From contig NZ_JANADO010000001.1 in the NCBI RefSeq assembly GCF_024199845.1, forward strand, positions 2,852,001 to 2,916,000: a stretch of DNA of 64,000 bases, in the 5' to 3' direction. The notes under the pieces were generated by a model that saw nothing but the letters and a program-made list of their open reading frames with translations, had not been told where the DNA came from and did not search any database. Position 1 is the first letter of the stretch. The number at the start of each line of letters is the position of its first letter. This stretch comes from Bradyrhizobium sp. CCGB12. GTDB taxonomy: Bacteria > Pseudomonadota > Alphaproteobacteria > Rhizobiales > Xanthobacteraceae. This document shows, one piece after another, positions 24,057-29,589 of the stretch. A program made the position numbers and the translations under genes.

Positions 24057-24131
24057 GCTCCCTTCGTCTATCGGTTAGGACGCCACCCTTTCACGGTGGA
24101 GAGAGCGGTTCGATTCCGCTAGGGAGCGCCA
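24057..24131 (+). tRNA. tRNA-Glu (anticodon UUC)
   Basis: A complete cloverleaf: acceptor GCTCCCT/AGGGAGC, D-arm with TCGGTTAGGA, anticodon stem CCACC/GGTGG enclosing CTTTCAC with anticodon TTC, T-arm GCGGTTCGATTCCGC, and an encoded 3' CCA. No integrase lies next to it, so there is no sign that it serves as an island attachment site here. Confidence 0.97.
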
Positions 24132-27621: not shown

Positions 27622-27690
27622 CCCGCGGAATGGCAAGCGCGCCGCGCGCATAGTAGATTGAGTCCAGCCCTCCCGCTCAGGAGCCTGCCG

Positions 27691-28269
27691 ATGCCATCGC
27701 CCGAGGAGTTTTCACGGATGCAATCCGCGATGAGCCGGGCGATGAAGGCGCATTGGAGGGCGTTCCTGTTCGAGGGAATCCTGCTCGCGGTTCTCGGCAT
27801 TGCCGCGCTGATCCTGCCGCCGCTCGCGAGCCTTGCGACCGCGATCTTCCTCGGCTGGATGCTCCTGATCAGCGGCATCGGCGGACTGATCGTGACCTAT
27901 TGGGCGCGCAGCACGCCTGGCTTCTGGTGGTCGCTGATCTCAGCTGCGCTCGCGGTGCTCGCCGGCATGCTGCTGCTGGCCCGCCCGATGCAGGCCGTGC
28001 TGACGCTGACCATCGTGCTCGGCGCTTATTTCCTCGCCGAAGGCGTCGCCACCATCATGTACGCGTTGGAACATCGCCGCGAGCTGAGCAGCCGCTGGTC
28101 GTGGCTGCTGATCTCGGGCCTCGTCGACATCGCGATCGCGTTCATGGTGATCACGGGACTGCCGAGCTCGGCAGAATGGGCGATCGGCGTCCTCGTCGGC
28201 ATCAACCTGCTGTTCGGGGGTGCCACCCTGATCGGCATGGCGCTGGCGGCACGCAAAAGCAACACCTGA
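27691..28269 (+). CDS. HdeD family membrane protein
   Basis: 192 residues with six hydrophobic segments and the HdeD pattern of paired short helices (FEGILLAVLGIAALILPPLA, GWMLLISGIGGLI, LTLTIVLGAYFLAEGVATI). In E. coli HdeD contributes to acid resistance at high cell density. An AGGAG 6 bases before the ATG at 27691 decides the start over the TTG at 27658. It follows the PrsW-like gene by 69 bases and may be cotranscribed. Confidence 0.88.
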   Translation: MPSPEEFSRMQSAMSRAMKAHWRAFLFEGILLAVLGIAALILPPLASLATAIFLGWMLLISGIGGLIVTYWARSTPGFWWSLISAALAVLAGMLLLARPMQAVLTLTIVLGAYFLAEGVATIMYALEHRRELSSRWSWLLISGLVDIAIAFMVITGLPSSAEWAIGVLVGINLLFGGATLIGMALAARKSNT

Positions 28270-28337
28270 GACGCCTCGTCGCGTCTCGCGCCGTTTGGGG
28301 GGTGACAAGGCGCCAGCGGCACGCTATATGGCCTCCC

Positions 28338-28418
28338 ATGATCACCGTCGCCACCAGCTATTTTTGGTACTTTAGCTACGACAGCTCGCTGGCGGCGGGA
28401 GGATCGCGCTCAATCTGA
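28338..28418 (+). CDS. Leader peptide of aroG (26 aa, aromatic-rich)
   Basis: A short ORF whose codons 8-14 encode YFWYFSY: three Tyr, two Phe and one Trp in seven codons. It lies immediately upstream of a DAHP synthase gene, is followed by a terminator, and its 3' part (CTGGCGGC, 28389-28396) is one arm of the attenuator. Ribosome stalling at these codons when charged aromatic tRNAs run short would free that arm. The peptide itself probably has no function. Confidence 0.85.
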   Translation: MITVATSYFWYFSYDSSLAAGGSRSI

Positions 28419-28461
28419 CACATTGCAGCAAACGTCCGAACAAGCCGCCAGACCTGGCGGC
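28350..28461 (+). promoter_or_regulatory. Four-segment transcription attenuator of aroG
   Basis: Segment 1 GCCACCAG (28350-28357), segment 2 CTGGCGGC (28389-28396), segment 3 GCCGCCAG (28444-28451) and segment 4 CTGGCGGC (28454-28461). Segment 2 is the perfect complement of 3, pairs with 1 with one mismatch, and is identical to 4, so 2:3 (antiterminator) and 3:4 (terminator) are mutually exclusive. Segment 2 lies 9 bases beyond the aromatic codons and before the leader stop, as trp-type attenuation requires. Confidence 0.82.
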
Positions 28462-28467
28462 TTTTTT
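28443..28467 (+). terminator. Intrinsic terminator of the aroG attenuator
   Basis: AGCCGCC-AGACCT-GGCGGCT hairpin directly followed by TTTTTT, placed between the leader peptide stop and the aroG start, not at a gene end. Confidence 0.9.
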
Positions 28468-28503
28468 ATTGGCCGGCAGGTTCTAAACAGACAGGAGCCC
28501 GCC

Positions 28504-29589
28504 GTGCTGAGCACGACCGACGATCTTCGTATCCGCGAACTGAAAGAGCTGAGCACGCCGGAAGAGGTGATGCGGGAGGTCCCGCGCACGCTCACCGCGA
28601 CGCGTGTGGTGATGGCCGCGCGCAATGCCATCCATGCGATCCTGAGCGGTCAGGACGACCGCCTGCTGGTCGTGGTCGGCCCCTGCTCGGTGCATGATCC
28701 CAGGGCTGCACTCGACTACGCCGAGCGCCTCGCAAAGCTGCGCGAGGACCTCGCCGACCAGCTCGAGATCGTGATGCGGGTTTATTTCGAGAAGCCGCGC
28801 ACCACGGTCGGCTGGAAGGGTCTGATCAACGATCCCAATCTCGACGGCAGCTTCGACATCAACAAGGGCCTGCGGTTGGCGCGCAACGTTCTGTCGGCCG
28901 TCAACAATCTCGGCCTGCCCGCAGGCGCCGAATTCCTCGACATGACGACGCCGCAATACATCGCCGACCTCGTGTCATGGGCTGCGATCGGCGCGCGTAC
29001 GACCGAGAGTCAGATCCATCGCGAGCTCGCGTCGGGGCTGTCCTGTCCGGTCGGCTTCAAGAACGGCACGGACGGCAACGTGCGGATCGCGGCGGACGCG
29101 GTGAAGTCGGCCGCGCATCCGCATCATTTCATGGCGGTGACCAAGCTCGGCCGTTCGGCGATCGCTTCGACTGCGGGCAACGAGGACTGCCACATCATCC
29201 TGCGTGGCGGCAGCAAGCCGAACTACGACGCGGCAAGCGTCGCATCTGCCTGCAACGAGCTGACCAAATCGGGCGTCGCGCCGCTGGTGATGGTCGATGC
29301 GAGCCACGCCAATTCGAGCAAGAAGCCGGAGAACCAGCCGCTGGTGATGACCGACATTGCAGGCCAGATCGCCGGAGGCGAGACCCGCATCATGGGCGTG
29401 ATGATCGAGAGCAATCTCGTCGCCGGCCGTCAGGACGTGGTACCGGGAAAGCCGCTCACCTACGGCCAGAGCATCACCGACGGCTGCATTGACTGGCCGA
29501 GCACGGCGGCCGTGCTCGAGCAGCTCGCCGACGCGGTCGAGATCCGCCGCAATACCCAGCGTGCAGGGCTGCACGAACGCTCGGCTTAG
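28504..29589 (+). CDS. aroG: 3-deoxy-7-phosphoheptulonate synthase (DAHP synthase, AroFGH type)
   Basis: First step of the shikimate pathway, condensing PEP and erythrose 4-phosphate. 361 residues, class I. Motifs: VGPCSVHDPRAALDYA, RVYFEKPRTTVGWKG, PVGFKNGTDGN, HIILRGG and DASHANSSKKPENQ. The start is GTG with AGGAG 8 bases upstream; an in-frame TTG at 28423 would put coding sequence through the terminator. N-terminal DDLRIRELKELSTPE is the usual allosteric lead for feedback-sensitive isoforms. Regulated by the upstream aromatic leader/attenuator. Confidence 0.95.
   Translation: MLSTTDDLRIRELKELSTPEEVMREVPRTLTATRVVMAARNAIHAILSGQDDRLLVVVGPCSVHDPRAALDYAERLAKLREDLADQLEIVMRVYFEKPRTTVGWKGLINDPNLDGSFDINKGLRLARNVLSAVNNLGLPAGAEFLDMTTPQYIADLVSWAAIGARTTESQIHRELASGLSCPVGFKNGTDGNVRIAADAVKSAAHPHHFMAVTKLGRSAIASTAGNEDCHIILRGGSKPNYDAASVASACNELTKSGVAPLVMVDASHANSSKKPENQPLVMTDIAGQIAGGETRIMGVMIESNLVAGRQDVVPGKPLTYGQSITDGCIDWPSTAAVLEQLADAVEIRRNTQRAGLHERSA

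Follow-up and report, generated by a model that had tools for sequence, protein, structure and literature searches.

How is the gene for the enzyme at the entry point of the shikimate pathway controlled in a Bradyrhizobium, and which amino acids does that control read? 3-Deoxy-7-phosphoheptulonate (DAHP) synthase is this entry point, i.e., the first enzyme of aromatic amino acid synthesis, and, as far as we know, work on its regulation has concerned mainly E. coli and Corynebacterium. The window, by which we mean the whole stretch of 64,000 nucleotides from Bradyrhizobium sp. CCGB12 that was analysed here, holds a type I DAHP synthase gene, aroG, which is 96% identical to aroG of Bradyrhizobium forestalis and has the following surroundings:

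27658-28269: HdeD-like gene upstream of the leader
28493..28497, plus strand: ribosome-binding site AGGAG of aroG, read from the sequence
28504..29589, plus strand: aroG, type I 3-deoxy-7-phosphoheptulonate (DAHP) synthase, GTG start (NCBIfam TIGR00034, 529.9 bits against a cut-off of 173.2)

The second DAHP synthase of the genome is of class II (G000:C1:3538654-3539967), and no aromatic leader was seen when the 400 nt upstream of its gene were read by eye in three frames. With two DAHP synthases found and no leader before the class II gene, the type I aroG would be the attenuated one.

The original prediction placed directly in front of aroG a 26-codon ORF carrying YFWYFSY (3 Tyr, 2 Phe, 1 Trp), followed by four short segments able to form competing hairpins. 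The sequence agrees with this ORF base for base, from the ATG at 28338-28340 to the TGA at 28416-28418, and the letters of the four segments are exactly as predicted (28350-28357, GCCACCAG; 28389-28396, CTGGCGGC; 28444-28451, GCCGCCAG; 28454-28461, CTGGCGGC). It is also true that 28389-28396 lies within the leader ORF, between codons 8-14 (28359-28379) and the stop at 28416, and that the 3:4 hairpin ends in six U (six T at 28462-28467). The end of the leader ORF is separated from aroG by 85 nt, and an intrinsic terminator and a competing antiterminator are present. The elements, as drawn from sequence, folding, and comparison, are as follows:

28338..28418, plus strand: leader ORF of 26 codons, MITVATSYFWYFSYDSSLAAGGSRSI, stop TGA (sequence)
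28345..28353, plus strand: segment 1 (CCGUCGCCA), with its partner at 28390-28398 (fold; 1:2 co-adapted in the alpha/gamma clade only)
28359..28379, plus strand: regulatory codons 8-14, Tyr Phe Trp Tyr Phe Ser Tyr (sequence; composition kept in relatives)
28389..28398, plus strand: segment 2, core CTGGCGGC (28389-28396), within the leader ORF (fold and comparison)
28401..28406, plus strand: 5' side of the second arm of the antiterminator, GGA 28401-28403 and CG 28405-28406 (fold; co-adaptation)
28433..28437, plus strand: 3' side of the second arm, CG 28433-28434 and UCC 28435-28437 (fold; co-adaptation)
28444..28451, plus strand: segment 3 (GCCGCCAG), common to antiterminator 2:3 and terminator 3:4 (terminator scan, fold, comparison)
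28454..28467, plus strand: segment 4 (CTGGCGGC) and the U6 tract, forming the intrinsic terminator (terminator scan; conserved)

The terminator is a 9-bp stem at 28442-28463 (the terminator scan found one against 0.4 expected in shuffles), and the stretch 28338-28475 folds better than all of 200 shuffled versions (z −3.15). The unoccupied leader RNA folds as 1:2 plus 3:4. Two of the predicted pairings had to be redrawn. The 1:2 hairpin does fold in the window; however, 28350-28357 with 28389-28396 has one mismatch, and the best pairing is instead that of CCGUCGCCA (28345-28353) with UGGCGGCGG (28390-28398) over 9 bp, which is co-adapted only in the alpha/gamma clade described below. The 2:3 pairing is present as predicted and is conserved in relatives, but the antiterminator is longer than had been thought, its second arm (28401-28403 with 28435-28437) having been missed.

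We then folded the RNA with a ribosome in place, assuming footprints of textbook size. For a ribosome at codon 8, 10, 12, or 14 (A site), and before segment 4 has been made, 2:3 forms with 8 bp (7 bp for codon 14), and the GGA/UCC of the second arm also pairs, with CG/CG inside. When segment 4 is present, the forced 2:3 and 3:4 structures have similar energies, i.e., −31.6 versus −30.7 kcal/mol for codon 8, −30.4 versus −30.7 for codon 10, −29.2 versus −30.7 for codon 12, and −23.5 versus −26.1 for codon 14; since 3:4 is slightly favored at equilibrium for codons 10-14, the switch must be kinetic, depending on the order of transcription. A ribosome placed on the stop codon (assumed footprint −17 to +12) covers the second arm; 1:2 then folds upstream of it (−22.6) and 3:4 downstream (−15.9). 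The constrained folds are thus in agreement with the expectation that a stalled ribosome favors 2:3 and a finishing ribosome 3:4, where the model has 2:3 forming before segment 4 is made.

We consider it very probable, judging from sequence, that aroG has a ribosome-mediated transcription attenuator that responds to how much charged tRNA-Tyr, tRNA-Phe, and tRNA-Trp is available. The transcript would begin at the leader ATG or right beside it, and the ribosome would load without a Shine-Dalgarno site, as promoter spacing suggests. If any one aromatic aminoacyl-tRNA is short, the ribosome is expected to stall at codons 8-14 and cover segment 1; according to comparison and folding, this would leave segment 2 and the second arm free to pair with segment 3 before segment 4 is made. 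With 28389-28396 paired to 28444-28451 and GGA paired to UCC, the terminator would be blocked and aroG transcribed. If all three are plentiful, the ribosome would reach the stop at 28416 and cover the second arm, and segment 2 would pair with segment 1, a step for which co-adaptation speaks in the alpha/gamma clade only; segment 3 may then pair with segment 4, and transcription would end at U6.

An aromatic codon string by itself proves little. The pattern TWYTWYTGGTWYTWY occurs twice in the 9.43-Mb genome, which does not exceed the five occurrences of its reversed control, and we dropped the string alone as evidence; as it is not rare in the genome, its significance lies in its position and conservation. 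This lack of rarity, and the fact that the hairpin stands after the HdeD-like gene (27658-28269), are what can be said for a much simpler reading, i.e., that the hairpin is a mere terminator of that upstream gene and the short ORF a chance frame. Conservation bears on it directly.

Within the genus sample, aroG is present in 185 of 195 genomes, and the leader, searched with a covariance model (R1, E up to 1e-5), was found in the same 185. All ten genomes without aroG are also without the leader, seven of them being at least 99% complete and three 67-75%. In every one of the 29 loci fetched from this sample, the leader is directly before aroG. In the genome of the window, the aroG leader is the single significant R1 match (9.4e-22), the next one being partial (0.03). 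Seven genomes of the genus (G065, G087, G098, G160, G166, G175, and G178) have a second R1 match at E up to 1e-5. A lack of conservation of the aromatic codons or of the 2:3/3:4 complementarity had been named beforehand as what would speak against the attenuator; with the leader in 185/185 aroG-bearing genomes and these features kept far outside the genus, the outcome is the opposite.

Beyond the genus, we looked at the 80 nearest aroG loci, a sample that covers nearest relatives only, and 63 of them have an aromatic leader plus terminator, with members in the alpha-, beta-, and gammaproteobacteria. A leader was called when at least four aromatic residues in eight were followed by a terminator, by which leaders with few aromatics would be missed. 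By record title, the 63 include loci from Bradyrhizobium, Mesorhizobium, Devosia, Methylosinus, Leisingera, Phenylobacterium, Rhizobium, Bordetella, Burkholderia and relatives, Massilia, Rugamonas, Janthinobacterium, Xanthomonas, and Dyella. No leader was called in the other 17 loci, including those of Methylotenera, Ferrovum, Enterovibrio, Pantoea, and Photobacterium, and one of the 17 (L043) has just 52 bases upstream and is not judgeable. Two loci are near misses. In Candidatus Burkholderia humilis (L035), the aromatic codons and the terminator are kept and the frame overruns the usual stop. A locus from an assembly titled Anaerolineae MAG (L051) has an aromatic leader of different build, MSRYFSFFSWYGYFAAGQVERAVVRPRDV, and after it a long G+C-rich hairpin poor in U; it may be a pan-aromatic leader of independent origin, or the contig may be mis-binned.

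In a phylum-wide sample of 398 genomes, aroG was found in 225 (E up to 1e-60), of which 49 have the leader immediately upstream of the gene, a figure from which the filters lose weak matches and in which one of the 49 has an E of 1e-4; i.e., by model R1, most aroG genes of this sample are without such a leader. Looking from the side of the leader, 48 of the 52 full-length R1 matches in the phylum sample (E up to 1.4e-5) are directly before aroG. The other four were inspected and are not before aroG, one of them being without an evident aromatic leader; R1 matches away from aroG precede genes that we take to be pheA, pheST, and trpE (trpE leader MNIGNWWWARFARP). Three xanthomonad-like loci (L171, L172, and L173) have a weak full-length second R1 match with E of 1.8e-4 to 4.3e-4, followed by a gene that reads like ilvC, a name we assume from its start; these matches are probably other attenuators or chance.

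Searches of single families gave very different rates, i.e., an R1 match in 53 of 60 genomes of a family that is betaproteobacterial by its place in the aroG tree (f43), in 14 of 60 genomes of a xanthomonad-like family (f46), and in 2 of 61 genomes of a third one (f17); an even sample of the window's class gave 8 of 289. The new loci from these searches have the leader before aroG in all but two cases, both from the class sample: L229, with no aroG in the fetched stretch, and L233, where the script found no leader. Altogether, 189 of the 210 fetched loci carry a leader, which is not a frequency estimate because the loci L116-L163 and L185-L233 were mostly fetched for the very reason that R1 matched them; the counts of 63/80 nearest loci, 185/195 genus genomes, and 49/225 aroG-bearing genomes of the phylum sample are less biased. 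The genus, phylum, and family counts indicate that the element is widespread but patchy, and its leader types follow gene clades in the aroG tree of 98 leader-bearing rows.

If the arms of the antiterminator matter, they should fit each other better than they fit the arms of other loci. For this comparison, thinning by shared 6-mers reduced the 170 distinct leaders to 98 before the permutation tests, and segment 2 was anchored at the first of seven GGCGG-like words after the aromatic run, regardless of segment 3. An RNAalifold run on a MAFFT alignment (A1), made without segment 4, recovered only three 2:3 pairs and was set aside; the arms are far apart across gapped columns, and for this reason anchored arms and permutation tests were used. 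In the 98 thinned leaders, the own pairing of arms 2 and 3 has a mean of −21.84 kcal/mol versus −19.35 when partners are exchanged (permutation sd 0.29), a difference reached by none of 5000 permutations; as controls for arm 2, a shuffled arm has a mean energy with arm 3 of −15.0 and the aromatic codon stretch one of −8.4. When the exchange is restricted to within three clades of the aroG tree, the 2:3 signal stays (z −6.0, 0/5000), and so does that of the second arm alone (z −5.1, 0/5000), with the neighboring control stretch at z 0.3. The 2:3 pairing is co-adapted even within clades, mainly via the second arm (28401-28403 with 28435-28437).

The core of segments 2 and 3 alone gives less within clades (z −2.8, 30/5000), mostly from the rows outside the two named clades (3/5000); little co-adaptation of the core is seen in the f43 clade (1852/5000) or the alpha/gamma clade (964/5000), probably because the core is nearly constant there. 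The 1:2 pairing is co-adapted in the alpha/gamma clade (z −2.8, 17/5000), and no co-adaptation of it was detected in the f43 clade (z 0.3, 3015/5000) or the remaining rows (z −0.8, 1028/5000). In the column adjoining the core, the bases of the three segments are T, A, and T in 28 of 98 leaders and C, G, and C in 36 of 98, which is mostly a clade difference, and the best covarying column pair on the tree comes to 4-5 independent pairs, too few for a sign test. The most frequent distance from the end of the segment 2 core to the stop codon is 20 nt (26/98), at which a ribosome on the stop would sit over the second arm and not over segment 2 itself. Some Oxalobacteraceae leaders (L019, L021, and L027-L030) have the stop right behind segment 2, i.e., the classical arrangement.

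Returning to the reading of the hairpin as the mere end of the HdeD-like gene, in three classes the element accompanies aroG and the sequence upstream of it varies, and co-adapted 2:3 arms are needless for a plain terminator. We therefore reject this reading and give it practically no chance. The attenuator is the reading that we pursue in what follows.

Which amino acids would it sense? The 170 leaders encode 141 distinct peptides, of which 111 have Phe, Tyr, and Trp and 30 have Phe and Tyr only. In the best 8-codon stretch of the 170 leaders, there are on average 6.1 aromatic codons in frame 0 versus 1.9 and 1.5 in the other frames, a contrast that is partly built in because frame 0 was chosen for at least four aromatics in eight. 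Both Phe codons and both Tyr codons are in use across leaders. The aromatic composition is kept, the order changes, and both codons are used, as expected if the codons are read. The original prediction was that a single leader reads all three aromatic amino acids, and codons for all three do occur in the window leader and in 71 of the 98 thinned leaders; the other 27, however, have Phe and Tyr only, and none is without Phe or Tyr.

These 27 leaders raise the possibility that the attenuator senses just one or two amino acids, most likely Phe and/or Tyr, with Trp as a passenger or fine-tuner. The presence of Trp also changes at least 17 times on a quick aroG tree that has weak support at 38 of its 95 inner branches. 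By arithmetic with textbook footprint sizes, a ribosome held at codon 14, the last Tyr codon, should leave segment 1 uncovered and reach into segment 2 by one base. A further hint is from Corynebacterium glutamicum, where the aroR leader with its Phe-Tyr-Phe is reported in a review to answer Phe and not Tyr (Neshat et al. 2014, via PMC11802643). Against this, the Trp codon is kept in 71/98 leaders, including many alphaproteobacterial ones around a Trp-Tyr-Phe core, and in the window leader it is codon 10, i.e., in the middle of the codon range, where a stall should work best. We regard sensing of one or two amino acids as unlikely but a serious alternative to a leader that reads all three.

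The peptides also bear on whether the nascent chain itself could stall the ribosome on a free aromatic amino acid rather than via an empty tRNA. Such an arrest peptide would act like TnaC, which is reported to respond to free Trp. Aromatic residues are prominent in some arrest peptides. In the leaders, however, the order and spacing of aromatic residues vary freely (e.g., YFWYFSY, FYFYFFW, YYFWFYGY, and FFFAYFWFS), which is what codon reading predicts, and the signal would have the wrong sign for a biosynthetic gene. We reject an arrest peptide as very improbable and keep to codon reading.

The start of the transcript was approached from the promoter side, and the following elements stand before the leader:

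28302..28307, plus strand: −35-like hexamer GTGACA, putative, from promoter scoring of the 60 nt before the leader
28324..28330, plus strand: −10-like element CTATATG, putative, ending 7-8 nt before the leader ATG

A strict consensus promoter scan found none before the leader. The promoter counts across relatives each leave out one leader whose upstream sequence is shorter than 60 bases. A distance of 6-8 nt between the end of the best −10 element and the start codon is seen in 117 of 169 leaders (56 of 97 in the thinned set), and in some leaders, mainly of the Burkholderia and Oxalobacteraceae kind, the best −10 element is 20-26 nt upstream. A Shine-Dalgarno-like word is found before the leader ORF in 1 of 169 leaders; in the thinned set, it is 1 of 97 versus 3.4 expected by shuffling, a weak depletion. 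Around the aroG start, such a word is found in 65 of 97 loci, where 45 nt were searched versus 14 nt for the leader and the two counts are not like for like. Given this −10 spacing and the usual distance, the transcript would start at or within 1-2 nt of the leader ATG, and the leader ORF is probably leaderless.

The start geometry that the promoter spacing suggests is known from trpL. In Sinorhizobium meliloti, the attenuator RNA rnTrpL is leaderless, has the ATG of trpL as its 5' end, and is active in trans, according to PMC7298713 and PMC10117765; the Bradyrhizobium japonicum peptide peTrpL is given there as MSTAVAPARLWWRTS. By this likeness in start geometry, the released leaderless RNA of about 130 nt, or the 26-residue peptide, might have a function in trans in addition to attenuation in cis. 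Outside its aromatic run, the peptide differs between groups, and hence no conserved peptide function is visible; we hold such an additional activity to be quite improbable, and the cis attenuator is what we compare with known systems. The aroG and trpL leaders share their being alphaproteobacterial attenuators of an aromatic pathway gene, and the aroG leader ORF would, by its promoter spacing, probably begin at the 5' end as that of trpL does in S. meliloti; in contrast, trpL has Trp codons only, stands before trpE(G) and not before the first step of the common pathway, and has an unlike leader peptide.

The four-segment logic is common to the E. coli pheA, pheST (pheM), and trp attenuators, which differ in that a single amino acid and other genes are involved. 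The Rfam family Phe_leader (RF01859) gives a sub-threshold match over 28352-28470, with 23.1 bits against a gathering threshold of 55; no Rfam family, Phe_leader included, gives a gathering match at the aroG leader or in 15 of 15 relatives searched, and no Trp leader family is among the three matches up to E 1 in 28200-28600. The sole Rfam gathering match in the window is a tRNA at 24057-24128 (58.5 bits). Multivalent attenuators do exist, e.g., those of E. coli ilvGMEDA (Leu, Ile, Val) and thr (Thr, Ile), which likewise have one leader that reads several end products of a branched pathway but belong to other pathways. We know of no other leader for all three aromatic amino acids.

Our literature search, in open-licence papers, found no description of an aroG or DAHP synthase attenuator of Proteobacteria. 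The likeliest places for an earlier mention are Vitreschak et al. 2004 and Panina et al. 2001, and the abstract of the former is not known to name aroG. In the portions available, aroG is absent from the main text of a Bradyrhizobium start-site study (PMC4842269), aroG and aroF are absent from the main text of a survey of premature terminators (PMC2965389), a study of alphaproteobacterial RNA motifs has no aroG (PMC1273637), and one of Actinobacteria has no aroF or aroG (PMC1262725); the theory of attenuation is treated in PMC1183508. The closest known system is aroR-aroF of C. glutamicum, where a leader is described for aroF (PMC4046766). It shares with the aroG element a short aromatic leader ORF and an attenuator transcript before a DAHP synthase gene, with ribosome-mediated attenuation reported; it differs in being from an actinobacterium and in having Phe-Tyr-Phe named and no Trp, a comparison made by description only.

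We consider this a real, conserved attenuator of a known type; what we have not found described is its setting, with codons for all three aromatic amino acids, the first enzyme of the common pathway as the target, a probably leaderless ORF, and a two-part antiterminator. A wider reading, which we put forward tentatively, is that of an old attenuator family common to alpha-, beta-, and gammaproteobacteria. Its ORF, single and mostly leaderless, would let one ribosome respond to a low pool of any of the Phe, Tyr, and Trp tRNAs, as an OR gate, and thereby control entry into the shikimate pathway, the two-part antiterminator being switched by the ribosome alone where 1:2 is missing. E. coli has several isoenzymes plus the TyrR and TrpR repressors, and, if this reading is true, one RNA does what E. 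coli does with all of these. The element offers a test of how a multi-input attenuator weighs codons by their position; it may also define a new RNA family and be of use in tuning aromatic production strains. A conserved switch responsive to all three end products would account for the way in which many other Proteobacteria set how much flows into the pathway.
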